34,040 nt of DNA from Rhodanobacter sp. (GTDB lineage Bacteria; Pseudomonadota; Gammaproteobacteria; Xanthomonadales; Rhodanobacteraceae): NCBI GenBank assembly GCA_004322005.1, contig SCRF01000078.1, positions 1 through 34,040 of the forward strand, given 5' to 3'. A program made the translations under genes and the position numbers. Within the stretch, counting starts at the first letter, position 1; each line of letters starts with the position of its first letter. Shown here in pieces: positions 5,831 to 26,396 of the stretch. The notes beneath the pieces are model-generated. The model was given only the letters and a program-made list of their open reading frames with translations, was not told where the DNA came from and did no database searches.

Positions 5831-5889
5831 GCAGTCATCAGCCCTGGCAGCCTGTCGGGCTTTGGCGGTCGCCGGCGAACTCCATCGCC
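5831..5889 (-). promoter_or_regulatory. fluoride riboswitch, HEAT-gene leader (weakened)
   Basis: On the minus strand GGCG-ATGGAGTT-CGCC forms P1, GACCGCC...GGGCTGATGA forms the second helix and conserved junction, and GACTGC closes the motif. The pseudoknot GGAGT:ACTGC has one mismatch, where the sister aptamers at 14148 and 16969 have perfect GGAGT:ACTCC. A -10-like TATCAT lies at 5907-5902. With the downstream frameshift, this points to a decaying unit. Family assignment is from motif match only. Confidence 0.75.
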
Positions 5890-6000
5890 CATGCGGCCGG
5901 GATGATACGCCGGTGCCCCCGCCGATGGACGTGACGACGTGACGACGGCCCGCCGAACACCGGCTTGTTTCTTCCGCGACGTACGATTAACGTGGAAGTC

Positions 6001-6046
6001 GGAGATGGCATCCTCCCGAACCGCCGCAAGGCTGATGATGCCTGCC
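6001..6046 (+). promoter_or_regulatory. fluoride riboswitch, DUF190 gene 1
   Basis: P1 GGAG(6001-6004)/CTCC(6013-6016) encloses ATGGCATC. The second helix is GCC-GCAA-GGC (6023-6032), followed by TGAT. The pseudoknot GGCATC(6007-6012):GATGCC(6037-6042) is perfect. These are the diagnostic parts of the crcB motif. The Shine-Dalgarno AAGGAGG of the downstream gene begins only about 28 bases later, so control is probably at translation initiation. A possible -10 TACGAT is at 5982-5987. It lies head to head with the HEAT-gene riboswitch, 111 bases apart. Confidence 0.88.
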
Positions 6047-6083
6047 TGTCCGGTTTCCAAGCGAATTCCGCGAAGGAGGCTCC

Positions 6084-6416
6084 ATGCAAGGCTGTTCGCT
6101 TCGTTTCTACATGCACGAGAACCAGAAGCATCGCGGCATGCTGCTGTACGAATGGCTGCTTGAGCAGGCCAAGAAGCAAGGTATCCACGGCGGTTCCGCC
6201 TTCAAGGCGATCGCCGGTTACGGTCGCCACGGCGTGATGCACGAGCAGCACTTCTTCGAGCTCGCCGGAGAGAACACCGTGCTGGTGGAATTCATCCTGG
6301 GTGACGATGAAACGACCACCATGCTCAAGATCGCCCAGCAAGACGGCGCTCCCTTGTTCTGGGCGAAATTCCCGGCCGAGTTCGGCATCGTCGGCAGCAT
6401 CGAAGCGGTGAAGTGA
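6084..6416 (+). CDS. DUF190 family protein, copy 1
   Basis: DUF190 proteins are small PII-like cytoplasmic proteins often found next to, or fused with, CrcB/Fluc fluoride channels; their exact role is not established. The 110-residue product has the family core LRFYMHENQKHRGMLLYEWLL (residues 6-26), then GIHGGSAFKAIAGYG and a C-terminal strand with EFILGDDETTTML. The start is set by AAGGAGG 6 bases before the ATG and by alignment with the second copy at 26488. It stands alone on the plus strand behind its own fluoride-type riboswitch, convergent with the Hyf-like operon. A regulatory or sensor role in fluoride stress is inference. Confidence 0.88.
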   Translation: MQGCSLRFYMHENQKHRGMLLYEWLLEQAKKQGIHGGSAFKAIAGYGRHGVMHEQHFFELAGENTVLVEFILGDDETTTMLKIAQQDGAPLFWAKFPAEFGIVGSIEAVK

Positions 6417-6518
6417 TCGTGTGACGTCTGCAGCGATTTCGGCGCATGCCGTCCTGCACCACGTGCTCGATGCGGGTCGGCAGATACTGGATGCACTGTC
6501 GCTGGCCGTTCGTCGGCA

Positions 6519-8492
6519 TCAGATCAGGGCCACGGCCATGACCAGGACCAGCAGCAAACCGACCAGGCCGAGATAGACGTTCATGTTCCCCGATTGCAGC
6601 GGGCTGAGCTTGTGCGCGAGCCACTGCACGATACGCGTCGGGCCGCGGAACACCGCCGCCTCGAACAGCGGCGACACGTCGGCACGATGGTGAACCTGGC
6701 GCACGAAATAAGCGCTGCCGCTGTGCTCGTGCCTGATCTCGCTCTCGGGCCGGTAGACGAAGCTGTAGAACGTGCGCATCGCGTTGGAGAAGCTCAACGC
6801 CGTGGTCATGCCGTTGGGCGGCGCCGGGCAGCCGCCGTACCATACCGGCGCGTGGCGCACGCGAAACCGCCGCCGTGCGCGCAGCAGCCACGCCAACGGG
6901 AGCAAGGCCAGCAACGGACAGACGATCACCAGCAGGGTCGGCGAGATGAACGCGAACGTGTCGGTCAGCGGCACCAGCAGCAGCCCCTTGTGCAACGCGG
7001 CGCTGCTCTGCCCGGCGAAATGGCTCGCCACGGCGCCGTCCAGCCCTTGCAGCCACCATGGCATGCCCACGGCCAGCGCCAGCACGGCCAACCCGAGCAA
7101 GCCGCATGCCAGTGCGTGGCCGCGACCGACGCCCGGCATCGCCTCGTTGGGCGGCCGGCCAAGAATGCCCAAGCCGACCAGCTTGACGAAGGTGGCCAAC
7201 GCGATCGCCGCCGTCAGCGCCATGCCGGCACCGGCCAGCGACAGCGTCAAGCGTCCGGCCAGCCCGCTCAGATGGAAGCCCTGGAACAGCGTCTGGAACG
7301 TGAACCACTCGCTGACGAAACCGGCCTGCGGCGGCATCGCCGCCAGGCTCATGCCGGCAAACACCACGCCAACGCCATACAGCCAGGGGCTGTGCCGCAT
7401 GACCCCCTGCTGACTCACCGCATAGCTGCCTGTCGCACGGAACGATCCATCCGCCGCCAGCATCAGCGCGCCTTTCGCCAGTGCGTGCCCGGCCAGATGC
7501 AGCAGCGCCACCACGAAACCGAGCGAAGCCAGTGCCAGCAACCCCTCGCCGCGAAAGACCTGCGAGGCACCCAGCAGGGTCACCGCGATGGCGGCATTCT
7601 CGGCCGAGGAGAACGCCAGCAGCCGGCGCCAGTCATCCTCCTGGAAGGCGTACAGCACCGCCAGGATCGCACTCAATACGCCCGCCGCCACCGTGACGAT
7701 GGCCAACAGACCGCCGCCCGGCAGCCACAGCGTGAAAGCCCGCTCCAACGCGAAGAACGCCGCGTTCAGCACGATGCCCGACAACAGCGCACCGCTGGCG
7801 CCGCTGCCCTGTCCGTACGCACCGGGATACCACTCGTAGAACGGTAACAGGCCCAGCTTGGCACCGAAACCGATCAACAGCAGCACGCCGATCAGCAGCG
7901 TGTAGCCATCCACGGGATGCGTGGCCAGAGCGGCGAATGCGGCAAGGTCGATGCTGCCCACCGAGCGGGCGATCATCAGCACGGCCGCCAGCAGGGCCAG
8001 CGCACCAACCTCCAGCAGCGCCAGCATGAACAGCAACCCGCGCCCCTCGCGCGTCGGGCCCAAACGCTCGCCGATCAGCAACACGGCGCCACCGAGGCTC
8101 ATCACTTCCCACGCCACCAGAAAGCCGACCGCGTCCTGCAGGCCGAAACAACCCAGCGCGCCGAGCATGCTCAGGCCGGCGCCCACGACCCAGCTGCGCC
8201 AGCGCGCGGCCGGCGTGCCCAGTGCCGTCGCAAAGAACGCCACGATGGCGCCGAACAGCAGCAGCCACAACGCATCCGGCGCAAGCTGGAAGCGACCGCC
8301 CACCACGCCAGGCCAGGCCGTGATCGGCAACGGCATGCCGGCGGGCAACTGCCGCAGCGCGGCCAGCACGATCGCGACCGTGCCGCCGGCCAGCGCGCCC
8401 CGCGCGAGCACGCGGCCGCGCCCCGCACAGCCCAGCACGATGGCCAGCACCCATAGCGCCGCCGCCAGCGCGATCAACCGCTCAGCGCTCAT
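6519..8492 (-). CDS. HyfB/NuoL-like proton-pumping membrane subunit
   Basis: Antiporter-like subunit of a complex I/group-4-hydrogenase-type module in the inner membrane. The 657-residue product is highly hydrophobic with many membrane segments. It keeps the key charged residues of the family: E129 in LVAWEVMSLGG and K212 in GFGAKLGLLPFYEWYPGAYG. The C-terminal region carries a soluble stretch (WYGGCPAPPNGMTTALSFSN) and then a last helix, as in HyfB/HycC. ATG 8492 is chosen because GGAGGT lies 6 bases upstream, 17 bases after the stop of the preceding gene. It is the last gene of the six-gene operon, so gene order differs from E. coli hyf, where hyfB is near the front. A 64-codon frame overlaps its stop but looks spurious. 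Confidence 0.88.
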   Translation of the reverse strand: MSAERLIALAAALWVLAIVLGCAGRGRVLARGALAGGTVAIVLAALRQLPAGMPLPITAWPGVVGGRFQLAPDALWLLLFGAIVAFFATALGTPAARWRSWVVGAGLSMLGALGCFGLQDAVGFLVAWEVMSLGGAVLLIGERLGPTREGRGLLFMLALLEVGALALLAAVLMIARSVGSIDLAAFAALATHPVDGYTLLIGVLLLIGFGAKLGLLPFYEWYPGAYGQGSGASGALLSGIVLNAAFFALERAFTLWLPGGGLLAIVTVAAGVLSAILAVLYAFQEDDWRRLLAFSSAENAAIAVTLLGASQVFRGEGLLALASLGFVVALLHLAGHALAKGALMLAADGSFRATGSYAVSQQGVMRHSPWLYGVGVVFAGMSLAAMPPQAGFVSEWFTFQTLFQGFHLSGLAGRLTLSLAGAGMALTAAIALATFVKLVGLGILGRPPNEAMPGVGRGHALACGLLGLAVLALAVGMPWWLQGLDGAVASHFAGQSSAALHKGLLLVPLTDTFAFISPTLLVIVCPLLALLPLAWLLRARRRFRVRHAPVWYGGCPAPPNGMTTALSFSNAMRTFYSFVYRPESEIRHEHSGSAYFVRQVHHRADVSPLFEAAVFRGPTRIVQWLAHKLSPLQSGNMNVYLGLVGLLLVLVMAVALI

Positions 8493-8509
8493 CGGGTGAC
8501 CTCCGTCGG

Positions 8510-9316
8510 TCAACGCTCATGCGGGCGGCCTCCGTGCACACGTTGCGGCTTGCGTTCGAGCAACAGCAGCAGCGCTTCGATGATGGCCGCCGGATTCGGC
8601 GGGCAGCCCGGCAGCCAGATGTCCACCGGCAGGATGCCGTGCAGCCCGTTGCCGCTGGCGTAAGTCCCGCCGCAGACACCGCCGCTCACCGCGCACGTAC
8701 CGCAGGCCAGCACGCGGCGTGGCTCGGGCATCGCCTGCCAGGTCGCCAGCAGCGGCTCTTGCATGGCCGCTGTCACGCTGCCTGTGACCAGCAGCAGATC
8801 CGCCGCGCGCGGCGACGCGGTGAAGAAGACGCCCAATCGGTGCAGGTTGTAGAACGGGTTGTTGAGCGCCTGCAATTCGGACTCGCAGCCATTGCAGGAA
8901 CCGGCATCGACGTGGCGGATATGCAGACTGCCGCGGAAGCTCTTCTCGATGTGCGCCGCCAACTGCTGGGAAGCCAGTGGCCTTGGTTCCAGCGACCATT
9001 CCAGATCGGCACGCTCGCGCACGCCGAACGCCCACGCTTCACTGGACTGCAAGGTACCGGACGGGCACGCCTCCACGCACAGCTGGCAGGCAATGCAGCG
9101 GCCGTAGTCGAGCTCGGCCAGATGACCGCGCGTGTCCAGTGCAATCGCCTGCGTCGGGCACGTTTGCGCGCAGCGCCGGCACTCGTCGCCGCAGTGCTCG
9201 GCGGTGATTCGCGGCATGCCGAGCGTGCCGTGCTGACCATGGTCGCCATCGGCCTTTTGCGGCCAGTCGGTGGTGGCTTGGCCTGACCTGAGTCCTCGTA
9301 GCGTCCACAATGACAT
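8510..9316 (-). CDS. HyfH-HyfI fusion: 2[4Fe-4S] ferredoxin plus NuoB-like subunit
   Basis: A 268-residue electron-transfer subunit joining two proteins that are separate in E. coli hyf/hyc. Residues 1-20 (SLWTLRGLRSGQATTDWP) resemble the HyfH N-terminus. C42/C46/C49/C53 and C74/C77/C80/C84 are two ferredoxin-type [4Fe-4S] motifs. From about residue 130 the NuoB/HyfI domain has DAGSCNGCESEL (C141, C144), GTCAVSGG (C208) and GCPPNP (C238), all four ligands of the N2-type cluster. Shine-Dalgarno AGGAG lies about 7 bases before the ATG. It should carry electrons towards the HyfG-like subunit encoded upstream. The electron donor is unknown; no dehydrogenase module is nearby. Confidence 0.88.
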   Translation of the reverse strand: MSLWTLRGLRSGQATTDWPQKADGDHGQHGTLGMPRITAEHCGDECRRCAQTCPTQAIALDTRGHLAELDYGRCIACQLCVEACPSGTLQSSEAWAFGVRERADLEWSLEPRPLASQQLAAHIEKSFRGSLHIRHVDAGSCNGCESELQALNNPFYNLHRLGVFFTASPRAADLLLVTGSVTAAMQEPLLATWQAMPEPRRVLACGTCAVSGGVCGGTYASGNGLHGILPVDIWLPGCPPNPAAIIEALLLLLERKPQRVHGGRPHER

Positions 9317-9325
9317 ATCTGTCTC

Positions 9326-10810
9326 CTAGCGGTCGCAGCCGGCGATGGCGAGGCCGAAGCTGGCTTCGTTGATCGCGTAGTCCATCATGTTGCTCTGGTG
9401 CACGGTGAACGGAAACGCGCGCCAGTTGGAAAACGAGGGCGACTTGATCTTCACCCGCGCGAGCCGTCCGTACGCATCGATGTGCACCGCGTAATACAGC
9501 GAGCCGCGCGGCGACTCCGCCCAGCCCAAACCACAGCTTGCAGGCTTGGGAATGCACGCCCCGCGTACCTCGCCAGATTGCAGCTGCGGCAGCAGCAACT
9601 CGATCAGGTCGAAGCTGACGCGCACCTCGGCGGCGCGCACCCGCGCCCGTGCATAGGCGTCGCCCTCCTCCGCCAACGGCACGGCGACGGGAAGATCGGT
9701 ATACGCCGCGTAGGGATGATCGCGCCGCATGTCGCGGTCGAGGCCCGATGCGCGTTCCACCGGCCCGGTGGCGCCCTGATCGAAGGCCACTTCGCGCGTC
9801 AGCACGCCGGTGGTGATCAGGCGATCCAGATAACTGGTGGTGCGTTCGAGCTGCAGCAGATACGACTCCACTTCGTTGCGCAAACGGCTCAGCGTGTCCG
9901 GCAGATCGGCGGGCACGGCGATATCGCGGCGCAGCCCGCCGGGCATCAGCACATTGCGCATGAAGCGCTGGCCGCTCAGCCGTCCCGCCAGTTGCTTGAT
10001 CTTCTCCTCCAGCAGTCGGCCCTCGGCCTGGCCCACCTTCAACGTGGTGGCATCGGCCAGCGCGCCGAAGTAATGCAGATGGTTGTAGAGACGTTCCAAT
10101 TCGGCCAGCAGCACACGCAATTGCCGGGCGCGCAACGGCACCACGCAATCGGCGGCATCCTCCACCGCCTGACAATAGGCCAGCCCGTGCGCCACGCTGC
10201 CCACCCCCGATACGCGTTCGGCCAGCACGCAGCCGGCCAGCGGATCGCCGCCTTCGAAGCGTGTCTCGATGCCGCGATGCTTGAAGAACAGGCGCGGCTG
10301 GTAGTGCATGACCGCCTCGCCCAGGTAGAAGAACAGGAACTGCGCCGACTCCATCACATCCGCGCGTACCGGCCCGAAGCTGAGCAACTGCACCTGCGGA
10401 TCGCGCACCTCGGGCAACACCAGCGGCGCGCGCAGCGACGGACGCGGCGGCCCCTCGATCGGCATCAAGGCGATGCCACGCGCCGCGCCATCGACGACCA
10501 GCGGATAGGGTTCGGGATGTCCGTCGAAGGTCAGGCCGTACAGATCCTGCATCTCGCGCTCGTACCAGCCCAGCAGCGGCGCGCGCAGCGCAAGACTCGG
10601 CAGGTGCGCATGCTCCGCCCGACATTCCCATACCTGCAGCGGCTGCCCCGCGCCCGGTGCCGCCAGATAACGCACCTCGGCCAGTGCCGGTCGCGGCAAC
10701 CAGGCATACGCCATCTGCATGCGGCCACCGCTGTCGAGCAACTGCGCCAGCCGCTCCTGCAGCGCGTCCGGCGCGACCTGGATGTATTCCACGCGCGGGC
10801 TCATGCTCAT
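9326..10810 (-). CDS. HyfG-like (NuoCD-like) large subunit lacking NiFe ligands
   Basis: Related to the NuoC-NuoD fusion and to the large subunit of group-4 hydrogenases. Residues 1-110 are NuoC-like (GWYEREMQDLYGLTFDGHPEP, 81-101). The rest is the NuoD/hydrogenase large-subunit domain of the 494-residue product. Hydrogenases bind nickel with two CxxC motifs. Here the first reads AERVSGVGSVAHG (S201 and G204 in place of Cys) and the C-terminal one reads EASFGLAIAGCDR, with a single Cys. The protein should therefore not bind NiFe, fitting the energy-converting hydrogenase-related (Ehr) class. The start overlaps the hyfF-like stop (ATGA) and has GGGAG 7 bases upstream. Confidence 0.88.
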   Translation of the reverse strand: MSMSPRVEYIQVAPDALQERLAQLLDSGGRMQMAYAWLPRPALAEVRYLAAPGAGQPLQVWECRAEHAHLPSLALRAPLLGWYEREMQDLYGLTFDGHPEPYPLVVDGAARGIALMPIEGPPRPSLRAPLVLPEVRDPQVQLLSFGPVRADVMESAQFLFFYLGEAVMHYQPRLFFKHRGIETRFEGGDPLAGCVLAERVSGVGSVAHGLAYCQAVEDAADCVVPLRARQLRVLLAELERLYNHLHYFGALADATTLKVGQAEGRLLEEKIKQLAGRLSGQRFMRNVLMPGGLRRDIAVPADLPDTLSRLRNEVESYLLQLERTTSYLDRLITTGVLTREVAFDQGATGPVERASGLDRDMRRDHPYAAYTDLPVAVPLAEEGDAYARARVRAAEVRVSFDLIELLLPQLQSGEVRGACIPKPASCGLGWAESPRGSLYYAVHIDAYGRLARVKIKSPSFSNWRAFPFTVHQSNMMDYAINEASFGLAIAGCDR

Positions 10811-12300
10811 GGATGGGCTCCCAAGGCATTCGCGATCGTGTGGAACAACGCCGTCCACGAGGCGGGCCACCACACCCCGAGCAACAACAGCGGCAGCAGC
10901 GGCAAGGCCATCGGCAGTACCCGCCAACCCGCGTACCAGCTCTCGCGTTCCATCGGTACGGCGCTCGTCGGCAGTTCGTCGGAATTGGCCGGAGACTCGG
11001 CCAGATACATCGCGCGGAAGTGATTCAGGAACGCCACGAAGATCACGATCAGCAGCACCAGCATGGCGATCGCCGCCCACAGATACGGCCCGCCCCAGCC
11101 GGCCCGCAGTATCGCGAACTCGCTGAGGAACAGGCCGAACGGCGGTGCGCCGGTGATCGCCACCGCGCCGCACAGCCACAGCGCGCCGGACACCGGAAAC
11201 ATCCGCCACACGCCGCGCATGTCGTCGATCCGCTTGCTGCCGTAGCGATGCATCGCGTTGCCCGCGCCGAAGAACAGCAGGGGCTTGGCCAGCGAGTGAT
11301 TGAGCATGTGATACAGCGCGCCGGCCACGCCAAGCGTGCCGCCGAAACCGAAACCCAATGCCAGCACGCCCATGTGCTCGACGCTCGAATAGGCCATCAG
11401 CCGCTTGATCTGACGCTGCCGCACGATGAACAGCGCCCCCACCAGCAGCGAGAACACGCCGAGGATCACCAGCGCGGCATGCGGCAGCGCGCCCTGCCCC
11501 GCCGCATCGGTCGCCGCCAGAAAACGCACGATGCCCACCATCGCGGTGTTGAGCAGCGCGCCGGACAGCATCGCCGACACCGGCGCGGGGCCTTCGCTGT
11601 GCGCGTCGGGCAGCCAGGTGTGCATCGGCGCCAGGCCGACCTTGGTGCCGTAGCCGATCAGGGTGAGCAGGAAACCCATCTTCAGCAGCACCGGCGGCAT
11701 CTGCGGTGCGGCGTGCACCAGCGACGCCCAGGTCAGCTGATACGTTTCGCCGTAGACGAACGTGCCGCCCCAGTACAACAGCGTCGTGCCCAGCAGCGCC
11801 AGGCTGATGCCCGACGACACCACGATGATGTATTTCCACGCCGCCTCCATGCTCTCGGCATTGCGTTCGAAGCCGACCAGGAAGGTGCTGACCAGCGTGG
11901 TCAGTTCGATCGCGATCCAGTACACGCCGATGCTGTTGACCAGCGGCGCGATCAGCATGGTCAGCGCGAAACCGGCCAGCAGCGCATAGAACAAGGGCAA
12001 CCGCGCCTTGCGACTCGCGTCATGGCGCATGTAGCCGATGGCGTAGATCGAGGACAGCAGATACACCACCGCCACGCACATCGCCACCCACGCGCCCAGC
12101 GGATCGACCAGCAGATAGCCGTCCAGAAAAGTGGCCGGCCTGGCGGCGGCAAACGGCAGTGGCAACGCCGCCAGCAGCACCGCCACGCTCGCCGCCAGAT
12201 TGAGGTACTCGCTGAAACGCGCACGCCGCACCGCCAGCCCCAGCACCACGGCCAGCGCGGGGGACAGCAGCAGGACGAGGATGCGCGCGGCCATGCTCAT
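10807..12300 (-). CDS. HyfF/NuoN-like proton-pumping membrane subunit
   Basis: A second antiporter-like membrane subunit of the complex, 497 residues with many hydrophobic segments. It has the expected proton-path residues E132 in YWIAIELTTLVSTF and K220 in GYGTKVGLAPMHTWLPDAH, followed by SEGPAPVSAMLSG, a sequence typical of HyfF/HycC/Mrp-type proteins. ALYHMLNHSLAKPLLFFGAG is also family-typical. The start overlaps the hyfE-like stop by 4 bases and its own stop overlaps the next start by 4, so the genes are translationally coupled. With the HyfB-like subunit this gives the module two predicted ion channels. No HyfD homologue is seen in the operon. Confidence 0.9.
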   Translation of the reverse strand: MSMAARILVLLLSPALAVVLGLAVRRARFSEYLNLAASVAVLLAALPLPFAAARPATFLDGYLLVDPLGAWVAMCVAVVYLLSSIYAIGYMRHDASRKARLPLFYALLAGFALTMLIAPLVNSIGVYWIAIELTTLVSTFLVGFERNAESMEAAWKYIIVVSSGISLALLGTTLLYWGGTFVYGETYQLTWASLVHAAPQMPPVLLKMGFLLTLIGYGTKVGLAPMHTWLPDAHSEGPAPVSAMLSGALLNTAMVGIVRFLAATDAAGQGALPHAALVILGVFSLLVGALFIVRQRQIKRLMAYSSVEHMGVLALGFGFGGTLGVAGALYHMLNHSLAKPLLFFGAGNAMHRYGSKRIDDMRGVWRMFPVSGALWLCGAVAITGAPPFGLFLSEFAILRAGWGGPYLWAAIAMLVLLIVIFVAFLNHFRAMYLAESPANSDELPTSAVPMERESWYAGWRVLPMALPLLPLLLLGVWWPASWTALFHTIANALGAHP

Positions 12301-12986
12301 CCGGTCAGCCTGCGCAGGTCGCGGCTGCTGGTGCTGCCGATGTGGGTGAGCAGGTAGCGCACCAGCACGCCGAAGCAGGCCACCGCGACCAGCAGGTCGA
12401 ACAGCAGCACCAGCTCGATCATCAGCGGCATGCCCGGCACCAGGATCTGCGCGCCGAGGAAAATGCCGTTCTCCAGCACCAGGATGCCGAGAATCTGGCT
12501 GATCGCCTCGTGCCGCAGCGCCAGCATCAGAAAACCGATCAGCTTCATCGAGAACATCACCGTCAACGCCAGCACCACCACGTTCGAGACGATGTGCAGA
12601 TCCGCCGTGAGGCGCATCGCCACCACCAGCGCGAAGATCACCGCGGCGGCGCCGATCACCAGGCTGCTCGAGGTGCTGAGGATTTCGTGCAGCTCGCGCG
12701 CGGTGTTCAGCCGCCGTAGGATGCGCAGGATCAACCACGGCAGCACGATGCCGCGAAACAGCACCGTCAGCAGCGCGACCCAGTACAACTCGCGGTAGCC
12801 GCCGTAGTAGCCGACCAGCGCCGACAGCATGCCGATCAACCACGACTGCGCGGCGAACGCCAGCATGTAATCCTTCAGCCAGCGCGAGCCCAGCATCACG
12901 AAGGCCAGCAGCAGGCTGGCGATCGTCAGCAGGCTGAACAGCGAGGCAGCCAGGGGATCGAGATGGGTGGCGAGCATGGCGTTCAT
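12297..12986 (-). CDS. HyfE-like membrane subunit
   Basis: A 229-residue, wholly hydrophobic protein with about six membrane segments. HyfE has an N-terminal extension plus a NuoK-like part; here ISQILGILVLENGIFLGAQIL contains the membrane glutamate (E in VLENG) characteristic of NuoK/MrpC-type proteins. It follows the hyfC-like gene by 30 bases; that gap is part of an imperfect tandem repeat (12984-13020) and has no clear Shine-Dalgarno. Its stop overlaps the hyfF-like start. Identification rests on sequence feel, the VLENG motif and position between hyfC and hyfF homologues. Confidence 0.82.
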   Translation of the reverse strand: MNAMLATHLDPLAASLFSLLTIASLLLAFVMLGSRWLKDYMLAFAAQSWLIGMLSALVGYYGGYRELYWVALLTVLFRGIVLPWLILRILRRLNTARELHEILSTSSSLVIGAAAVIFALVVAMRLTADLHIVSNVVVLALTVMFSMKLIGFLMLALRHEAISQILGILVLENGIFLGAQILVPGMPLMIELVLLFDLLVAVACFGVLVRYLLTHIGSTSSRDLRRLTG

Positions 12987-13020
12987 CGGATCAGGTTCTT
13001 CATTGGATCAGGCTCTTCAT
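12984..13020 (-). repeat. imperfect tandem duplication between hyfC-like and hyfE-like genes
   Basis: On the minus strand ATGAAGAGCCTGATCCA is followed by ATGAAGAACCTGATCCG and then ATGAACGCC, the hyfE-like start. The duplicated block covers the stop of one gene and the approach to the start of the next. Confidence 0.7.
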
Positions 13021-13961
13021 CGAATCTGGTTCGCGACGATGGCCAGCACGGCCAGCAGGAAGGCGACGGCCAGCGGCTCCTGATAGCGATAGAAGCGCAG
13101 CCGCGCCTGCGCGGTTTCCACCGCGATCACGGCGCCGGCGACGACGCCGAATTTGATCAGGATGGCCAGCACCGCCCCAGCCAAGCCCAGAGCCGTACCT
13201 TGCTTCGACAGCCCCCACGGCAGCAGCAGGACGTGGCAAAAAATCGTGTAGAGGATGAACTGCTTCATCATCCCCGACCATTTCAGCAAGGCCAGCAGCG
13301 GTCCGGAATACTCCAGCACGCGCGCCTCCTCGATCATGTACACCTCGATGTGCGTGCTCGAGTGGATCGGCAGCCGATCGGTCTCGGCCAGCAGCAGCAC
13401 GAAAAACGCGGCGACCAGGAACAGGTGGGTCGGCCCCCAGTAGATCGCCGGGTTGGCAACCAGCAGATGGTTCACCACGAACGGCAGCATCGCGTGCGCC
13501 ATCAGGGTGATGCCGACGAACACCAGGATCAGCGTCGGTTCGGCGAGGATGGTGATCATCACCGTGCGGCTCGCGCCGATGCCGCCGTACGCGCTGCCCG
13601 AATCGAGCGCCGCCAGATTGACGAAGAACGTACCGACCGTGAGCACCAGGCCGCCGCCGAGGATGTCGCCCATGTCCGACAGCGGCAGCGGATAATTGGT
13701 GAGCACGGGAATCAGGATCGGCACCGTCAGCATCGCGGTGAACGCGACGATCGGCGCCGTCCAGAAAATCCAGCTGGCCGTGTCCGGCACCACCAGCTGC
13801 TTGCGGAACAGCTTGCGCAAATCCCGGTACGGCTGCAGCAGCGACGGACCGCGGGCGCGCTGCGCGCGCTCCTCGTAACGCAGGATGAACCCCTGCAGCA
13901 AGGGCGACAGCAACAGCACTGTCAGCACCTGGGCTATCTGGGCGAGGACGTCCCTGAGCAT
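13017..13961 (-). CDS. HyfC/NuoH-like membrane anchor subunit
   Basis: NuoH/HyfC-type proteins link the peripheral arm to the membrane arm. The 314-residue product has about eight membrane helices and the conserved acidic cytoplasmic loop: AETDRLPIHSSTHIEVYM (192-209) then IEEARVLEYSG (210-220), closer to HyfC than to NuoH. It is the first large gene of the operon. Its ATG lacks a good Shine-Dalgarno and lies 9 bases past the stop of a 46-codon leader ORF, which itself follows a fluoride-type riboswitch. The same-frame stop of that leader excludes a longer N-terminus. Confidence 0.88.
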   Translation of the reverse strand: MLRDVLAQIAQVLTVLLLSPLLQGFILRYEERAQRARGPSLLQPYRDLRKLFRKQLVVPDTASWIFWTAPIVAFTAMLTVPILIPVLTNYPLPLSDMGDILGGGLVLTVGTFFVNLAALDSGSAYGGIGASRTVMITILAEPTLILVFVGITLMAHAMLPFVVNHLLVANPAIYWGPTHLFLVAAFFVLLLAETDRLPIHSSTHIEVYMIEEARVLEYSGPLLALLKWSGMMKQFILYTIFCHVLLLPWGLSKQGTALGLAGAVLAILIKFGVVAGAVIAVETAQARLRFYRYQEPLAVAFLLAVLAIVANQIR

Positions 13962-13970
13962 GCCGGCGCG

Positions 13971-14111
13971 TCAGCGATGCCGGACGGGATATTCGACATG
14001 CTCCGGATGGACACGCTGTCTTCGCTCCGGCGGGCTCCCAGGTGGCCGCGCCATGCGGGCCGCAGGCAGGCCAGACGGAATGAAACCGGGGGACACGGTG
14101 GTACAGGCCAT
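13971..14111 (-). CDS. 46-codon leader ORF of the Hyf-like operon
   Basis: ATG 14111 has a perfect AAGGAG (14123-14118) 6 bases upstream, far better than the hyfC-like start it precedes. The product (MACTTVSPGFIPSGLPAARM..., Pro/Arg-rich) shows no recognisable domain or membrane segment. Its TGA lies 9 bases before the hyfC-like ATG in the same frame. The Shine-Dalgarno is complementary over five bases (CTCCT) to the aptamer tail. It probably serves as the fluoride-controlled ribosome entry point for the operon. Translation is inferred. Confidence 0.55.
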   Translation of the reverse strand: MACTTVSPGFIPSGLPAARMARPPGSPPERRQRVHPEHVEYPVRHR

Positions 14112-17140: not shown

Positions 17141-17147
17141 CGCTGGC

Positions 17148-18004: not shown

Positions 18005-21000
18005 ACCCGCAGCCGCAGGCGACGCCATCGACCCACACCGATGAGGCGCGGCGGATGCTGATGGATACGATTCGGCAGCTGCCGCTGGGGGCGCACTTCA
18101 GTCGCACCACCCTGAAGGCGGCCGAGGTGCTGGCCATGCACGCCCAGGGGTGGCGCAAGCCGCTGGCCTGGTTTCAGCCCGAGGGCAGCCGCGCCGATGC
18201 GCTGCAGTGCGAGCTGGTCGAGGTGCAGGGCAGCCGCCGCCTGGTCACGGTCTACGTGTACCCGTTGTTCGGACAGACCGCGCTCGAATCCCGCTGCAGC
18301 TGCGACCAGCCGCTGTGCCCGCACGCGGCGGCCCTGCTGATCCGCCTGCAGCAGTTGCTGGACTGGCCGCGCGCGATGACCCCGCTGCAGCGCTGGCAGC
18401 AGGGCATCGGCACGATCCGCGAACCGGTGCCGAACGCCGCTTCGATCGACTGCCGCGAATCGCGCCAGCTGGTGTGTCTGCTCGACACCGACAGCGATCG
18501 CCAGCCGGCCCGGCTGGTGGCGCGCCTGATCCTCATCCACGGCAGCGATGGCCTGCATCAGCCGCAGCGCTGGCTGTCGGCCGAACACGCGCGGGCGCAT
18601 TCGCACCTCTCGCGCCAGGCGATGATGTGGCAGGCCCAGCTGGCGATCGGGCAGCGGCGTCTGCGCGCGAACGAGCCGGGCTATGTGCTGGAAGGTCATG
18701 CCGGCGCCACGCTGCTCGGCGAACTGCTCGAGGCGGGAATCTGCCACCACGCGCAAACCCTGCAGCCGATGGCGGCCGGCGGCCTGCGCCAACCGGCTTG
18801 GCAGTGGTCGCACGACCAGCACGGCCAGGCGCGCATCGCGCTGGCATGGCCCGAGGCGCACGCGGTTCGGCTGCTCGAGCTGGATGGCCTGCACTATCTG
18901 GACGAATCCAGCGGCGAGCTGGGCAAGCTCGCGCTCGCGCCGGCCACGTGGTCGATGCTGGAGCACATGCCGCCGATCCCGCCCGCGGAAACCGGGCTGA
19001 TCGCCGACTGGCCGCCGCACCCCCTGCTGGCCGGCGTGCCGCCACCGCCGGCGCCGCCGGCATTGCGCGAGATCAAGGCCGGCCTGCAACCGGTATTGGT
19101 GATCGGCGCCGCGCGGAACGCCGAGCGCGGCGATCACGTGTTGCACCTGCACGCCTGGGCGGACTACGGCGGCTGCCGCCTGCCGCTGGCCGGGCAACCC
19201 TGGCGCGAGCAGGTCATCGTGCACCAGCGCGGCGAGTACGTGCAGCTTCGCCGCGCGGTCGAAGACGAAATGGGAGCAGCCAGAGCGCTGGCCGCAGCCG
19301 ACATGGTGGCGCTCGTCAGCCTGCTCCCCGACGCGCGACGCACCCTGCAACCGGCGCCCGACACGCAGGCACTGGGCCACCGTCAGCACCACCGGGGCGG
19401 CGCCGAAACTTTCGCCGCGCTGGAAGCGATCGTGCAGTCGCTGGGCTCCGCCGGCTTTCGCACCGAATACGATCCCGAGCTGCCGTTCGCCGTGCTGCCG
19501 CGCGAGACTCCGCTGCAGGCTACCCTCGTTGAAGGCCGGCAAGCGGGCTGGACGCAGTTCGAGCTGGCCGCCCTGCTCGACGGTGAGGAGATCGACATGT
19601 TGCCGATCATTCTCGACGGGCTCGCGCGCCGATCCTTTGCGCTGACCCGCTCGCCGCACGAGTCGGCCGACGCCTGCTGGCTGGCGCCGATCGGCACCCA
19701 GCGCTTTCTGCCGCTGCCGCTGACACGACTGCGCGAATGGCTGACGCCGCTGGTGGAATGCCTCGAAGCGCCGGGCAAGCGCCGCGGCAACCGGCTCGAC
19801 CTGTCGCCCGCGCAGGCGATGGCCCTGACCGACAGCCTGCAGCAGCAGGGCATCGCGCTGCAGGGTGCGCACGCGGCGAGCATCACCGAGATGCTGGCGC
19901 GGCTGCGCGCGGCGCAGCAATCGGCGCCGCCGGCGCTGCTGCCCGGCTCATTCCAGGGAACGCTGCGGCATTACCAGCAAGAGGGCCTGCAGTGGCTGCA
20001 GGCCCTGCGGCAGAGCGGCCTCGGCGGCGTGCTGGCCGACGACATGGGCCTGGGCAAGACGGTGCAGATCATCGCGCACCTGCTGCTGGAACGGGAATCC
20101 GGACGGCTGAACCGGCCCGCCTTGATCGTGGCGCCGACCAGTCTGGTGTTCAACTGGCTGGACGAGATCGCGCGCTTCGCGCCCACGCTACACTGCCTCA
20201 ACTTCACCGGCCCGCTGCGCGCCACACAGCATGAAGCGCTGCAGCACGCGCAGGTAATCGTCACCAGCTACGCGCTGCTGGCGAACGATCTGGCCCGGCT
20301 CGAAAGCATCGACTACGCGCTGCTGGTGCTGGACGAGGCGCAGTGGATCAAGAACCCGCTGACCCAGACCGCGCGCGCGGTGCGACGTTTGCGCGCATCC
20401 CATCGCATCGCGGTGACCGGCACGCCGCTGGAGAATCATCTGGGCGAACTGTGGGCGCATCTGGACGCCGTGATGCCGGGTTATCTGGGCGACTATCGCT
20501 CGTTCAACCGCAGCTTCCGCATTCCCATCGAGCGCCATGGCGACGATGCGCGGATGGCGATCCTGCGCCAGCGCATCGCGCCGTTTCTGCTGCGCCGGAG
20601 CAAGGCCGCGGTCGCGCCCGAGCTGCCGCCCAAGACCGAGACCGTGCTTCGCGTGGCGATGGACGCCGGCCAGCGCCAGCTCTACGAGTCGCTGCGGCTG
20701 GCGCAGAGCGAACGGGTGCGCGAGGCGCTGGCCAGCTACAGCGCCGAACAGTCGCGCATCGTGGTGCTCTCGGCGCTGCTGCGCCTGCGTCAGGTCTGCT
20801 GCGACCCGCGCCTGATCGAGGCGCTGGACGATCCGCCAGCCTCGGCCAAGCTCGATGCCTTGCTGGACCTGATCCACTCGCTGCGCGACGACGGCCGCCA
20901 GGTGCTGGTGTTCAGCCAGTTCACCTCGATGCTTGCGCTGATCGCCAAGGCGCTGGATGCGGCTCGATTCGAGTATGCGCTGCTGACCGGCGAAACCGGC

Positions 21001-21363
21001 GATCGCGCCACACCGGTGCGCCGCTTCCAGAGCGGCGAGGTGACGATCCTGCTGGCCAGCCTCAAGGCCGGCGGGGTCGGGCTCAATCTCACGGCGGCCG
21101 ACGCGGTGATCCACTACGACCCGTGGTGGAATCCCGCGGTCGAACAGCAGGCGGTCGATCGTGCCCACCGGATCGGGCGCGATCAGCCCATCTTCGTCTA
21201 CAAGCTGTTGTGCGACGACACCATCGAGGAGAAGATCGAGTCGATGAAAGACCACAAGAGCGATCTGGCCGATGCCCTGCTCGAACATGCCGCCTCGCCA
21301 TGGGCGGGATTCGGCGACATCGATGTACGCAAGCTGTTCGACCTGCCATCGCCAACGCGATGA
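18001..21363 (+). CDS. SNF2-family helicase/ATPase with SWIM zinc finger
   Basis: A 1120-residue protein of the HepA/SNF2 superfamily II, dsDNA-translocating ATPases that move or strip proteins. A SWIM motif (RCSCDQPLCPHAAALL; C99, C101, C106, H108) is near the N-terminus. Residues about 150-640 are poorly conserved. The helicase core follows: ADDMGLGKTVQII (about 679-691), VLDEAQWIKN (about 775-785), TGTPLEN, then the C-terminal lobe with VFSQFTSM, LKAGGVGLNLTAAD and HRIGRDQP. ATG 18001 overlaps the phosphatase stop by 4 bases, so the two are coupled. The gene is normally a lone DNA-metabolism gene; here it is tied to a fluoride riboswitch. Confidence 0.92.
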   Translation: MNPQPQATPSTHTDEARRMLMDTIRQLPLGAHFSRTTLKAAEVLAMHAQGWRKPLAWFQPEGSRADALQCELVEVQGSRRLVTVYVYPLFGQTALESRCSCDQPLCPHAAALLIRLQQLLDWPRAMTPLQRWQQGIGTIREPVPNAASIDCRESRQLVCLLDTDSDRQPARLVARLILIHGSDGLHQPQRWLSAEHARAHSHLSRQAMMWQAQLAIGQRRLRANEPGYVLEGHAGATLLGELLEAGICHHAQTLQPMAAGGLRQPAWQWSHDQHGQARIALAWPEAHAVRLLELDGLHYLDESSGELGKLALAPATWSMLEHMPPIPPAETGLIADWPPHPLLAGVPPPPAPPALREIKAGLQPVLVIGAARNAERGDHVLHLHAWADYGGCRLPLAGQPWREQVIVHQRGEYVQLRRAVEDEMGAARALAAADMVALVSLLPDARRTLQPAPDTQALGHRQHHRGGAETFAALEAIVQSLGSAGFRTEYDPELPFAVLPRETPLQATLVEGRQAGWTQFELAALLDGEEIDMLPIILDGLARRSFALTRSPHESADACWLAPIGTQRFLPLPLTRLREWLTPLVECLEAPGKRRGNRLDLSPAQAMALTDSLQQQGIALQGAHAASITEMLARLRAAQQSAPPALLPGSFQGTLRHYQQEGLQWLQALRQSGLGGVLADDMGLGKTVQIIAHLLLERESGRLNRPALIVAPTSLVFNWLDEIARFAPTLHCLNFTGPLRATQHEALQHAQVIVTSYALLANDLARLESIDYALLVLDEAQWIKNPLTQTARAVRRLRASHRIAVTGTPLENHLGELWAHLDAVMPGYLGDYRSFNRSFRIPIERHGDDARMAILRQRIAPFLLRRSKAAVAPELPPKTETVLRVAMDAGQRQLYESLRLAQSERVREALASYSAEQSRIVVLSALLRLRQVCCDPRLIEALDDPPASAKLDALLDLIHSLRDDGRQVLVFSQFTSMLALIAKALDAARFEYALLTGETGDRATPVRRFQSGEVTILLASLKAGGVGLNLTAADAVIHYDPWWNPAVEQQAVDRAHRIGRDQPIFVYKLLCDDTIEEKIESMKDHKSDLADALLEHAASPWAGFGDIDVRKLFDLPSPTR

Positions 21364-21377: not shown

Positions 21378-21520
21378 GATGGCACTTAACTTAAGCGCGA
21401 AATCATGTTTTTCGTCATTCCCGCGAAAGCGGGAATCCAGTGCCTTCCGTGGCCTCCAAATGCTTAAAGGCGCTGGATTCCCGCTTTCGCGGGAATGACG
21501 GCACTCAAGCAAGTGCCATT
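21378..21520. mobile_element. 143-bp MITE-like element, copy 2
   Basis: Terminal inverted repeats GATGGCACTTA / AAGTGCCATT, internal hairpins ATTCCCGCGAAAGCGGGAAT and ATTCCCGCTTTCGCGGGAAT, and core 21437-21476. A perfect 11-bp direct repeat ACGTCCCTTCC flanks it at 21367-21377 and 21522-21532, as expected for a target-site duplication. The arms match copy 1 (905-1047) in the opposite orientation while the core matches in the same orientation. It separates the helicase stop from the enolase start and could act as a transcriptional barrier or stabiliser. Confidence 0.85.
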
Positions 21521-21555: not shown

Positions 21556-22833
<1,278 letters not shown>

Positions 22834-22859: not shown

Positions 22860-22932
22860 GTAGGAGCGCGCTTGCGCGCGATGCTCTTTGCCAGGGGCGT
22901 AGCAAGAGCATCGCGCGCAAGCGCGCTCCTAC
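22860..22932. repeat. REPIN between convergent eno and MutS-like genes
   Basis: GTAGGAGCGCGCTTGCGCGC at 22860 and inverted partner GCGCGCTCCTAC ending at 22932. It is a sequence variant (CGCTTGCG instead of CACCCTGTG). The minus-strand gene uses the TAG of its GTAG head (22931-22929) as stop codon. Confidence 0.85.
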
Positions 22933-24464
22933 GGATTCCTGCGAGTCTGGCGTGCCGTGGTTTCCGTTTCGGCCGGGAAGATCTCCCGGTACAGGTCTTC
23001 GCCGTAGCTGGTCTGCAGCGGTTCGCCCGCGCCGATCCGGAAGGTGCGCGTGCCGTCGGCGAGTCGCTGCGCGCGCAGGAAGATCGCTTCGTGCATCCGG
23101 CGTTCGAACAGGCTGTGCGCGAACGCGTACAGATGCGTCACGAAGAAGATCCTGATGCCCTTTTCCAGCAAGGCGCCGACGATCTGCCGGGCGATCTCCG
23201 CCCCCTCGCGCTCATTGGTGGAGGCAAAGGATTCGTTCAGAAGCAGCATCGAACCGGGCACCATGCCGTCGGCGATGGCGCTCATCCGGCCAAGCTCCTC
23301 GTCGAGCTTGCCGCTCATCATGGTGGCGTCCTCTTCGCGCTTGTAGTGGGTGAACAGAGCGCTGTGCAGCTCGGCTGCGAAGGACTCGGCCGCGACGAAC
23401 ATGCCGCTCTGCATCATCAGCTGCGCCAGGCCGATACCGCGCAGGAAGCTCGACTTGCCGCCCTGGTTGGCGCCCGTGATGATCAGCAGGCTCTTGCCGT
23501 CGGCGTCGAGCGCATTGCCCACCGGGCGGCGTCCCATGCTGAGCGCAAGGCAGACGTCGTACAGTCCGCCGAAGCGAAGGGCGCGGCTGCCCGAAGCCTG
23601 CGGCTGCGCAAAGCACACCGGCGCGCCCAGCAGCGCGAGCCGGTCGTGCAGGTTCAGGCAGCCGACATAGAACGCCAGTTCCATTCGCAGCATCTCGAAA
23701 AACCGCAGGATGTGCTCCATCGACTGGGCAAGCGCATTCGCGACGAGGTTGATGCCGCGGTCCCGCATCGAGGACAGCGCCTGCGCGCCGGCCACGTCGC
23801 GATCGGCGATGCGGAAGGTATAGGCCGGCGGTCCCTTGTCCATGATCCGCTTGAGCCAGCCCGGCTTTTTTTCGTGTGGCCGGCGCAGCATGTAATGCAC
23901 GCCTTCGTTGCCCGGCCCCAGCTGCGCGCTCAGCAGGACGCCCGCGCCGAACTTCAGTTCCGTCAGATGGGCATCGACGCTGGCCAGGTACTCGTCGCTG
24001 AATTCCTTCTGCAGCATCGCAAAGAGGGTGGTAAAGCCCCTCGACCTGAATCGGCCCGCGTGCGCATCGGCGCTGTCCCTGAGTTTTTTCAGCACCGTCA
24101 TGAACATCCGCAGCACCTCGATCGCGCCATGCAGGATCGAGGACGGGTAATGGCTGGAGAAGCTCCAGTAACTCTTTCTCTTGCCTTCGATGGCCTCCAC
24201 CGCGAGCGCGTAGAGTTCGCGGACCACCTGCGGATTGCTCAGGCCATCGCGCACGATCTCCTGCCGATACAGGATCGTGTCCGCGTCGTTGCGCATGCCC
24301 GCGAGCAGCGCCTTGCGCGCCACCTCGAACAGGAACTCGTCGTCGTCCGCCATGGCGCGCAGCAGCGTGTCCAGCTCCAGGTCCTGCCGCAGGCTTTGTT
24401 CGTGCCGCGGCAATGTCGGCGGCGGGTCGAAATCCCGATCCGGGTACATCAGGAGCGCTCTCAT
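22929..24464 (-). CDS. MutS-type ATPase domain protein (second of pair)
   Basis: A 511-residue MutS-family protein with only the helical core/lever and ATPase domain; no mismatch-reading domain, no Smr nuclease. Walker [11 protein letters not shown] (331-340), Walker B region [16 protein letters not shown] (406-421) with catalytic E411 but Asn in place of the usual Asp before it, and the H-motif VTH (442-444). The NES form is typical of a MutS-like branch distinct from MutS and MutS2. Its start overlaps the upstream gene stop (ATGA), so the two MutS-like proteins are probably made in equal amounts and may form a heterodimer. C-terminal residues may be set by the REPIN. Function unknown. Confidence 0.85.
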
Positions 24465-26029
24465 GGCTTGATCCGCCTCTTCAGCCAGTCGTACGTCACT
24501 CGGTATTTCTCGGCGATCGCCAGAGCGTACGCCAGCCCATCGGCCGGCTTGCGCTCCATGCTGTAGGTGCGAACCGCCGGGTCGTTTGGATCGACCGCGG
24601 CCACGACGCTGACCGCTTTTTCGTCGAACGAGGCCAGTTCCGTCAGGAACGTGACGCAGACCCCCAGCATGTCGCGCCGCGAGATTTCCGCCATCACCTT
24701 GCGGCCCAGATAGAGCGCGTCGTCGAGCGTGGTCGATGAAAAGATCTCGTTCATGATGAGGATGCTGTCGGGCGTCGCCTGCTCCAGGATGCGATGGATC
24801 CGGATCAGGTCGTCCTGCAGCTTGCCCCGCAGGTTCGCGATGCTCTCCTCCTTTTCGAAATGCGTGAACAGACGGTCGAACAGAAACAGGCTCGCCTGCG
24901 TGCCCGGAACCGGGCAGCCCAGACTGGCCAGATAATGCAGCTGGCCGAACATGCGGGCGAACGTGGTCTTGCCGCCCTGGTTCGGACCGGAGACGACGAA
25001 GACGCGCTCGCTCCCGCGCAGGTAAAAATCGTTGCGGACAACGCTCGTTCCCCGTTCGATGAGACTAGGAGCCAGGGCAGGATCGAAGGCCTGTCGAGCG
25101 CTGACCTGCTTGGACTTGTCGGACATCTGCGGATAGCAAAAACTCAAGCCGTGGCGCCGGAAGGTGTCGATGTATGCCAGACAGGCCACGTAGAACTGCA
25201 CTTCGCGGTCGAACCGCACGATCCGGTCGTCCGCAGGCTGCGCATGTTCGGCGCAGAATGCATCGAGGGCGCGGAACGTGTCGGGGTAAAGCAGTGCCAC
25301 CCGGTCCAGCACCTGCGCATGGACATGGTCGATGCCCACCCGGTCGTGGAAGCCGGCCCGATAATCCTTGACCGCGCCGCGCCTGAACTTCGCGAAGGTT
25401 TCTTCGACGGCCGTACTGGCGTCGGTCTCGCCGTCATAGCGGCGCACGGTGACGCTGTTGCCCTTGATGAGCAGGCCGTAACGGAGCGCCGACAGATCGG
25501 CCTTCAATGTTCCGGTATCGGTCGCGAGCCGGGTGAACGACGTGGACGCGAGATACGCCGCCAGATAGTCGCGAAGCGCGCGCATGCCGTGCGATGCGAC
25601 CGCAAGCTGCTGCAAATCCTGCCCGAGGCTTTCGACGGCTTCGCAGTACGCGTCGGCCGCGCCCAGGAACCAGCGCTCCTGCTCGTACCGGTAGTAATGG
25701 AGTTTCGTCGCCAATGCGAGGCGCTCGCGCATCGTGGCCATTCGCCGCGCGAACGCCGTGACGGCATGCAACAGGTTTTCGTCCTCGAGGTCCCGCATCA
25801 CCGCCTGCCGATAGGCGATTTCATCGAGACGGTTCAGCGGCGCATGGAAGAACGGTGCCAGATCGTAGTCCTGCCGGCCCGCCGTGATCGCCGCCACGAC
25901 CTGATCGAGGTTCAGGTCGCGGAAGAAGGCGGGTGCCTCGCGCGCTTCGTGCCTGGCGCCTTCCGCCGGCCCGCGATACAGGACGCTGTGGAAGCGCAGC
26001 GATTCAGCGCCCGAACTGTCATTCGCCAT
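24461..26029 (-). CDS. MutS-type ATPase domain protein (first of pair)
   Basis: A 522-residue protein with MutS-like helical core and ATPase: Walker [15 protein letters not shown] (347-360) and [13 protein letters not shown] (422-434) with E428, again Asn before Glu. No DNA-mismatch domain. It is first behind a fluoride riboswitch on the minus strand. ATG 26029 has AAGGAG, but 10 bases away; GTG 26035 and GTG 26101 are in frame too. The last has GGAG 6 bases upstream inside the riboswitch hairpin and would add an Arg-rich 24-residue extension. Pairing with its neighbour suggests an ABC-like ATPase dimer acting on DNA or RNA. MutS-like genes have been reported with this riboswitch before, as I recall. 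Confidence 0.83.
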
Positions 26030-26117
26030 GTCCACGCTGCTCCTTGGTTCAGAAGCGCAGGCACGCAGGCGGAATCGTCGCGGACGGCGACGCCTGCACA
26101 CCCGACGCTCCGGGTGA

Positions 26118-26185
26118 GGCAGGCATCATCAGCCGTCACGGTGGTTCGCCCTGGTGAAACCCAAGGCCGGAGGAATGCCATCTCC
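26118..26185 (-). promoter_or_regulatory. fluoride riboswitch, MutS-like operon
   Basis: On the minus strand GGAGATGGCATTCCTCC forms P1 and loop. An extra helix GCCTTGG/CCAGGGC follows, then GAACC, CCG-tga-CGG and TGATGATGCC with pseudoknot GGCAT:ATGCC. The tail GCCTGC can instead pair with GCAGGC further on, enclosing CACCCG/CGGGTG. The GGAG and GTG start of an in-frame extension lie in that nested hairpin. The riboswitch at 26329 has the same platform. Confidence 0.87.
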
Positions 26186-26199
26186 GCTTCCACGAAGGC

Positions 26200-26227
26200 A
26201 TCTTAGCCACAATCGCGCGAGCCGCAA
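26200..26227 (-). promoter_or_regulatory. promoter of MutS-like operon
   Basis: On the minus strand -35 TTGCGG (26227-26222), 16-base spacer, -10 TAAGAT (26205-26200). The predicted start near 26193 is about 8 bases before the aptamer. Confidence 0.5.
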
Positions 26228-26328
26228 GTTGCGGGACCGCGCGGCAGTGCGGTGTTGTTCATCGCTCAGCGGTGGCTCGGATGACGGGCCGAATCGATAA
26301 ACCTGCTACGATCCAGGCCAGTTCGTTC

Positions 26329-26396
26329 GGAGATGGCATTCCTCCGGCCCCACGTCGATCGGGGCGAACCGCCGCCCACGGCTGATGATGCCTGCC
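26329..26396 (+). promoter_or_regulatory. fluoride riboswitch, DUF190 gene 2
   Basis: GGAGATGGCATTCCTCC (P1 and loop), extra helix GCCCC/GGGGC, GAACCGCC...GGCTGATGATGCC, pseudoknot GGCAT:ATGCC. The tail CCTGC can pair with GCAGG around the hairpin CACCCCGG-agt-CCGGGGTG (26398-26415). That hairpin contains GGAG and, 6 bases on, GTG 26413, which opens an in-frame extension of the DUF190 gene. An extended -10-like TGCTACGAT is at 26304-26312. It is head to head with the MutS-like riboswitch, 143 bases apart. Confidence 0.87.

Follow-up and report, generated by a model that had tools for sequence, protein, structure and literature searches.

The contig SCRF01000078.1 of Rhodanobacter sp. (assembly GCA_004322005.1), analysed here over 34,040 nucleotides (nt; hereafter the window), raises the question of why so many apparent fluoride riboswitches lie side by side in one genome and which genes they serve. 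An original prediction, made from the sequence alone, had claimed seven of these RNA elements, six of them in three divergent pairs, and read the stretch as a fluoride-response island; as a check it proposed an Infernal search with the Rfam model. We consider it very probable that the window holds a genomic island of ~25 kb, probably acquired horizontally, that forms a cis-encoded fluoride regulon.

Seven fluoride riboswitch aptamers

In a cmscan search against Rfam 15, all seven leaders exceeded the gathering score of 34 of the fluoride riboswitch family RF01734 (36.2–53.7 bits, E-values 1.2 × 10−6 to 2.3 × 10−12), which bears out the predicted count by the very check that had been proposed. 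No other Rfam family passed its own threshold in the window, and a lax run (E-values up to 1) added four further families, each below its own gathering score. On the minus strand, riboswitch 1 (5822–5898, 36.2 bits, the weakest) leads a HEAT-repeat gene, riboswitch 3 (14142–14221, 43.6 bits) a hydrogenase-4-like (Hyf-like) complex, riboswitch 4 (16963–17042, 47.4 bits; repeat D3) an alpha-alpha toroid gene and riboswitch 6 (26113–26194, 40.1 bits) a pair of MutS-like genes. On the plus strand, riboswitches 2 (5992–6051, 53.7 bits) and 7 (26320–26401, 47.3 bits) lead DUF190 genes a and b, and riboswitch 5 (17140–17208, 44.5 bits) leads a histidine phosphatase–SNF2–enolase run. The three divergent pairs were confirmed; within them the aptamers are 93, 97 and 125 nt apart. 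The junction and the loop-to-tail pseudoknot are likewise present, with two exceptions to the original description: a non-standard pair in the second helix at 26113, and an ACUGC tail that, judged by eye, breaks one of the five pseudoknot pairs at 5822.

An open reading frame (ORF) follows each of the seven aptamers on the same strand. An automated walk to the first gene showed a gene for six of them and missed the toroid gene, 178 nt from the aptamer at 16963. Only one further RF01734 match was found in the whole genome (3.6 Mb in 136 contigs), just upstream of crcB and, at 30 bits, below the cut-off. That seven of eight genomic sites fall on one 34-kb contig is far from chance. Taken with 60 nt of flank on each side, the aptamers share 53–67% pairwise identity. 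A repeat scan showed the sites at 14142 and 16963 to be 91% identical over 66 nt and 5822 to be a remoter relative of both (75–83% over 36 nt), and switches have therefore been copied within the island or its ancestor, the first two being recent duplicates of each other.

The loop-tail pseudoknot covaries across sites. In an alignment of 37 sites (two of the seven in the window and 35 from relatives), pseudoknot positions pair in 99.5% of cells versus 86.1% in shuffles, and 24 cells carry double changes versus 6.6. The strength of this signal is tempered by two of the five covariation measures, which fail to exceed shuffles: double changes affect three of the five pseudoknot pairs, a number matched by 115 of 500 shuffles, and the count of pair types is not raised.

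As cytoplasmic fluoride rises, a Mg-fluoride complex would stabilise this pseudoknot, which would make the tail strand unavailable to a downstream segment and switch the gene on. A downstream complement of the pseudoknot tail was detected (p ≤ 0.05, 100 mononucleotide shuffles) at 35 of 83 Rfam sites, where about four are expected. This agrees with an ON switch that works by mutual exclusion of the pseudoknot and a downstream hairpin. Within the window, just two sites have a significant anti-pseudoknot helix, 17140 (p = 0.01) and 16963 (p = 0.05); 8-bp helices at 26113 and 26320 reach p = 0.17 and 0.12, and no significant helix was found at 14142, 5992 or 5822. In addition, no sigma-70 consensus promoter was found in 4800–17500, a segment whose 8 terminator-like sites do not exceed background (6.8 expected). 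Sequestration of the Shine–Dalgarno sequence as a common expression platform, an impression gained by eye at 14142 and 5992, was not significant by shuffle test and was dropped.

Recurrence behind fluoride riboswitches in other genomes

How common such clusters are was judged from related genomes and plasmids. A regular-expression riboswitch finder recovered only 58 of the 83 known sites and its 35 candidates resembled chance matches; it was therefore replaced by a model, R1, built from 37 of the 83 Rfam sites, whose structure consists of the pseudoknot helix only and whose E-values are rough. With matches defined at an E-value of 0.001 or better, some of them below the Rfam cut-off, and with counts that are lower bounds owing to stricter filters, 163 of 233 genomes of the family had a match: 139 exactly one, nine two and 15 three or more. 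This agrees with the predicted rule that most genomes carry one or two. A sample of the order gave matches in 133 of 398 genomes. An earlier set of congeners had at least one match in 31 of 35 and never more than two, to which the larger search added a congener, G475, with six. Six or more sites occur in six of the 233 genomes: the present one (G000, 8), G475 (6), G358 (14), G309 (10), G282 (9) and G228 (8). Sites detected by R1 that fall short of the Rfam cut-off, at loci L198 (14706, 27.4 bits), L167 (8430, 26.0 bits) and L175 (815, 27.3 bits), are weaker evidence. Some genomes reportedly hold about ten fluoride riboswitches, as Baker et al. (2012) and Breaker's review are said to describe.

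Corresponding gene runs lie behind fluoride riboswitches in other genera, their DNA diverged, and on plasmids; this recurrence of much of the gene set supports the reading of the stretch as a fluoride-response island. Plasmid stretches carry 11 sites in Burkholderia cenocepacia, 10 in B. multivorans, six in Alicyclobacillus, three each in Citrobacter and Caballeronia and one in Rhodococcus. The two Burkholderia stretches (L039 and L040, with 11 and 10 riboswitches) belong to plasmids typed as conjugative (B. cenocepacia) and non-mobilizable (B. multivorans). Related islands often also hold crcB, CLC-F, pyrophosphatase or nhaA, and in relatives a dynamin-like GTPase gene follows the toroid gene and an Hsp70-like ATPase gene the HEAT gene (L055 15214–17019, L049 17918–19552). 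The contig of one G358 fluoride island additionally bears two radC RNA motifs (RF01754; L046 17699–17848 and L047 18241–18385), between and beyond its riboswitches.

New membership of the fluoride regulon had been suspected for the helicase, toroid and HEAT genes, and for each of them two or more further genomes have a homologue, with 45–73% protein identity to the window, as the first gene recognised downstream of a riboswitch. First genes were tabulated for 115 sites in loci picked for having matches, not at random; 13 sites had no recognised gene, among them the toroid site of the window that the walk missed. A search with the N-terminal 667 residues of the SNF2 protein, in which up to five candidates per genome were scored, found it in six of the 233 family genomes at an E-value of 10−60 or better, and all six have at least four riboswitch matches (hypergeometric 2.4 × 10−8, ignoring relatedness; six genera are involved). 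A riboswitch heads the gene run in all six and enolase follows the helicase in all six. SNF2 is the first recognised gene in G309, G228 and G424 (site at 35.1 bits), and is reached through the histidine phosphatase in the window and through histidine phosphatase and pyrophosphatase in G358 and G282. The toroid gene occurs in five of the 233 genomes, again all with at least four matches; in the window, G309 and G282 it directly follows a switch. HEAT does so in G358, G282 and, with almost identical sequences, G475 and G477, as well as in the window, where the gene is broken; in G461 it lies behind a dynamin-like gene.

Several observations weigh against these genes as regulon members. From switch to first match, the SNF2 runs leave gaps of 182 to 596 nt, of which those before the helicase in G424 and G309 are 467–596 nt and those before the histidine phosphatase in G358 and G282 about 550 nt; some of these gaps may hide a small gene. 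G475 has SNF2 truncated to its C-terminal part, with enolase and no switch before it; the toroid of G228 is incomplete and lacks its own switch, and none directly precedes that of G424. SNF2, toroid and HEAT are also without match in the six plasmid stretches, and no fluoride riboswitch was found (R1, E-value 0.1) in the flanks, up to 10 kb and often less, of 80 remoter SNF2 relatives. These are the best 80 of 591, 34–55% identical over their best segment; among the SNF2 matches listed, the nearest named relatives are Dyella, Rhodanobacter and Luteibacter.

On the result for these 80 loci a generic association of SNF2 proteins with the riboswitch was rejected; the island helicase is assigned to an island-specific clade. 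Neither the island enolase nor the MutS pair was found beside the 80 remoter loci at an E-value of 10−10. Their neighbours included one MutS-like protein (28% identity), one crcB (50%; L131, no riboswitch found) and, at one locus each, pieces of gpmA, a P-type ATPase and HyfI.

Could the aptamers be real, and helicase, toroid and HEAT be mere passengers beside fluoride genes, with no role in the fluoride response? Their absence from the plasmid stretches would fit this, as would the damaged copies: HEAT broken here behind the weakest switch, SNF2 truncated in G475, the toroid partial in G228. Against it, all three come first behind a switch elsewhere, SNF2 in three genomes, toroid in two besides the window and HEAT in four, and the islands differ in part in their gene order, G282 alone being largely collinear with the window once inverted. 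We therefore regard the passenger explanation as rather unlikely. Their recurrence supports SNF2, toroid and HEAT as predicted regulon members. A search of the open-licence literature gave, among the matches listed, no paper on any of the three as a fluoride-riboswitch gene.

Insertion site and gene content of the island

The left end of the contig carries rpmA–rplU–uvrA–thioesterase and the right end enoyl-CoA hydratase (ECH)–sulfurtransferase–NUDIX–FKBP. When these flank genes were sought in stretches of 19.2–19.5 kb from nine congeners, thioesterase and ECH lay 1.6–6.4 kb apart in eight, versus about 25 kb here; the ninth, G013, had no ECH match in the stretch examined. None of the nine stretches yielded a fluoride riboswitch match. 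The insertion is thus absent at the orthologous site in eight of nine relatives, as befits a genomic island, and the short distance between the flanks indicates that the island was probably acquired. Three points speak against acquisition: the GC content of island segments (62.3–68.6%) is not distinct from that of the flanks (65.6 and 66.9%), Pfam recognised no mobility gene among the larger island reading frames scanned, and an ancestral island with many repeated losses would be an alternative.

It is extremely improbable that the contig comes from another organism and was binned into this assembly. The assembly is a draft of 136 contigs and the island is missing at the same place in congeners, both of which would fit a foreign contig; yet both ends match congeners (rplU–uvrA, with 87–90% protein identity for uvrA, and ECH–sulfurtransferase–NUDIX–FKBP) and the island sits between these congener-like ends on one contig. 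Contamination was rejected because both flanks match. The congener G475 has a related island (HEAT|DUF190, MutS|MFS, and the truncated SNF2 with enolase) between other flanks: over about 98 kb it showed no uvrA, thioesterase or right-flank gene of the window, save one 28%-identical ECH match. Metal-efflux (resistance-nodulation-division), copper-oxidase-like and cation-diffusion genes, named by eye, also lie inside the G475 fluoride island (L166).

The largest unit of the island is a run of six hydrogenase-4/complex-I-like genes on the minus strand (6519–13961): HyfC (13017–13961), a HyfE-like protein (12297–12986), HyfF (10807–12300), HyfG (9326–10810), HyfI (8510–9316) and a HyfB-like protein (6519–8513). 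Pfam recognised five of the six, as antiporter-like, NuoH-like, NuoB-like and NuoCD-like subunit types, and NCBIfam models supported HyfB and HyfG; the HyfE-like protein, without a Pfam match, was named by gene order and the plasmid annotation 'hydrogenase'. In hydrogenases of this kind, the cysteines of two CxxC motifs in the large subunit bind Ni. HyfG lacks them. When large subunits from seven islands were aligned (those of the window, G358, G309, G258, B. cenocepacia, Caballeronia and Alicyclobacillus), both motifs proved lost in all seven and their positions occupied by RVSGVGSVAH- and FGLTIAGC-type sequences; six retain one cysteine, one place beside the second motif. The island HyfG profile still matched the E. 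coli formate hydrogenlyase subunit 5 (HycE, 7z0s) with 260 bits, with all four cysteine positions replaced. The complex thus lacks the two motifs that mark a group 4 [NiFe] hydrogenase, and because of this loss the set resembles a complex-I-like ion pump. The proton-pump-like complex of the original prediction does lie behind a switch, and its reading is corrected to one without a Ni site. A literature search on Ni-free hydrogenase-related complexes returned nothing usable among the matches listed.

The remaining genes were assigned mainly by Pfam. The HEAT-repeat gene (4842–5782, minus), which also shows a sub-threshold zinc-ribbon trace, is split into two frames, 5312–5782 and 4842–5708; the N-terminal piece matches HEAT_2 (PF13646), and the C-terminal piece has no Pfam match. 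Homologues of both pieces form one open frame in L056 and L049 and share the same frame in L165, so that a frame-split gene sits behind the weakest riboswitch while relatives hold intact copies. DUF190 (COG1993) protein a (6084–6416, plus; PF02641, 62 bits) matches the structures 1o51 (TM0021) and 2dcl, and protein b (26413–26817, plus) reaches 38 bits to PF02641. The toroid protein (15871–16785, minus; PF00432) has a prenyltransferase/terpene-cyclase-like fold, to judge from Foldseek similarities that are weak (E-values of 6 × 10−4 and worse) and lead to type II cyclases and the beta chains of prenyltransferases; the query was a moderate AlphaFold model from three sequences (mean predicted local distance difference test score 73.4; three of five models near 40). 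On the plus strand follow the histidine phosphatase (17390–18004; PF00300), the SNF2-family helicase (18001–21363; PF00176, PF00271) and a second enolase (21556–22833; PF00113/PF03952); another enolase gene lies elsewhere in the genome, at C5. The MutS-like ATPases A (24461–26101) and B (22929–24464; both minus, PF00488) lack the full MutS architecture: Pfam recognised only domain V (MutS_V), and NCBIfam scores of 76 and 49 bits compare with an equivalog cut-off of 480.

Two major facilitator superfamily (MFS) transporter genes on the plus strand, at 26960–28228 (PF07690) and about 28525–29685 (63% identity to a B. cenocepacia protein annotated as an MFS transporter), are perhaps the last genes of the riboswitch 7 unit (26960–29685); in G282, G358 and G475 a homologue of the second is the first gene recognised downstream of a riboswitch. 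No crcB, CLC-F, pyrophosphatase, dynamin-like or Hsp70-like gene matched in the window at an E-value of 10−3. Two CLC-type channel genes lie on other contigs of the genome, for which no riboswitch match is listed.

Two further features inside the island have no riboswitch: an S-adenosylmethionine methyltransferase-like gene (14352–15272, PCMT trace) and, at 15399–15866, a fragment that carries the N-terminal domain of peptidase M61. A 34-nt inverted repeat, 97% complementary, stands between the SNF2 and enolase genes (21413–21500). Inverted pairs of a short palindromic repeat with a GTAGGAGCGCACCCTGTGCGCGA core, which we take to be REPIN-like, occur at 4685–4813, 15643–15729, 16875–16961, 28344–28434 and 30538–30624, one of them between riboswitch 4 and the toroid gene and others near the island ends.

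Some of these features raise the question of decay, in which the island would be leaving the lineage and some switches (5822, perhaps others) would no longer regulate. The weakest aptamer, with its broken pseudoknot pair, precedes the frame-shifted gene; pyrophosphatase, CLC-F, crcB, dynamin-like and Hsp70-like genes of related islands are unmatched here; and a palindromic repeat separates switch 4 from the toroid gene. The six other aptamers nevertheless score 40–54 bits, and the reading frames of Hyf, SNF2, enolase and MutS are uninterrupted, which makes decay distinctly unlikely.

Proposed function and comparison with known fluoride systems

In the fluoride regulon that we favour, each of seven predicted transcription units would begin with a fluoride riboswitch aptamer, and fluoride sensing may thus control the whole island with one RNA switch per unit. 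Fluoride export would fall to a crcB–DUF190–cfa operon on another contig, likewise preceded by a riboswitch. Its cfa-like genes follow crcB–DUF190 on contig C116 (L084 8693–10782), and a cyclopropane-fatty-acid-synthase-like gene also stands first behind a fluoride riboswitch at 7 of the 115 sites, or after crcB–DUF190. A membrane response to hydrogen fluoride (HF) is a possible explanation. Enolase is a classic fluoride target, and the island would supply a second line of defence: a second enolase, the phosphatase, two MFS transporters and the DUF190 proteins. The Ni-free ion-translocating complex related to hydrogenase-4 and complex I would likely serve proton or cation balance as HF carries protons in, and the MutS-like pair, SNF2 helicase, HEAT and toroid proteins may add ATP-driven or repeat-protein machinery.

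A more specific repair arm is conceivable. Combined with Mg or Al and with phosphate or ADP, fluoride forms dead-end complexes that trap enolase and P-loop ATPases. The MutS-like pair might act as a reactivase, perhaps of enolase, SNF2 with the Hsp70-like and dynamin-like proteins of related islands might clear trapped complexes, and the Ni-free Hyf complex might be a dedicated ion pump that restores proton balance rather than a hydrogenase. MutS-like B scores 57 bits to the reactivase KamC versus 54 at best to MutS models, and A is nearer MutS (76 versus 44 bits to KamC), all far below cut-offs. At six of 16 loci an enolase gene lies no more than about 100 nt from the pair, in two cases with the same orientation. 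A literature search on the KamC reactivase returned no paper. We treat this repair arm as a speculation with little chance of being right.

Among the closest precedents are fluoride-riboswitch genes already on record. The available passages of the original motif survey (Weinberg 2010, PMC2864571) name mutS and formate hydrogenlyase as targets, and those of a 2024 review (PMC11139923) name enolase, pyrophosphatase, antiporters and formate hydrogenlyase, as well as extensive fluoride riboswitch use in Methylobacterium DM4 and S. cattleya. The MutS-like, enolase and formate-hydrogenlyase-like genes listed in the original prediction were thus already described, whereas SNF2 helicase, alpha-alpha toroid and HEAT are absent from these passages of both sources. 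The specific SNF2 clade, the toroid protein and the HEAT protein are therefore added candidates for the fluoride regulon, recurrent in several genera. The 'formate hydrogenlyase' long noted behind fluoride riboswitches is suggested to be Ni-free in the seven aligned cases. With hydrogenase-4 and formate hydrogenlyase the island complex shares a similar subunit set; with the four Ni-binding cysteines replaced, it is nearer in kind to complex I or to the 'energy-converting hydrogenase-related' complexes, which would shift the physiological reading from fermentation to ion balance.

The window aptamers share the pseudoknot of RF01734 and all exceed its threshold, and they differ from its typical occurrence in that seven stand in about 20 kb, six of them in divergent pairs. 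In the available passages on Enterobacter cloacae FRM (PMC5533749), the fluoride-induced island GI3, said to be acquired, has one riboswitch and six genes, including eno, a phosphatase and crcB; the window has seven riboswitches, a large membrane complex and ATPases, and no crcB match. A further likeness is to the plasmid islands of B. cenocepacia (NZ_CP073707) and B. multivorans (NZ_CP143553), which in the stretches scanned carry their 11 and 10 riboswitches together with a Hyf-like complex, the MutS pair, eno and DUF190; these additionally hold crcB, CLC-F, ppa and dynamin, and SNF2, toroid and HEAT had no match there. Overall, a known kind of island is represented here in unusually rich form; it contributes new regulon candidates, supported by their recurrence, and its hydrogenase-like complex is read anew.

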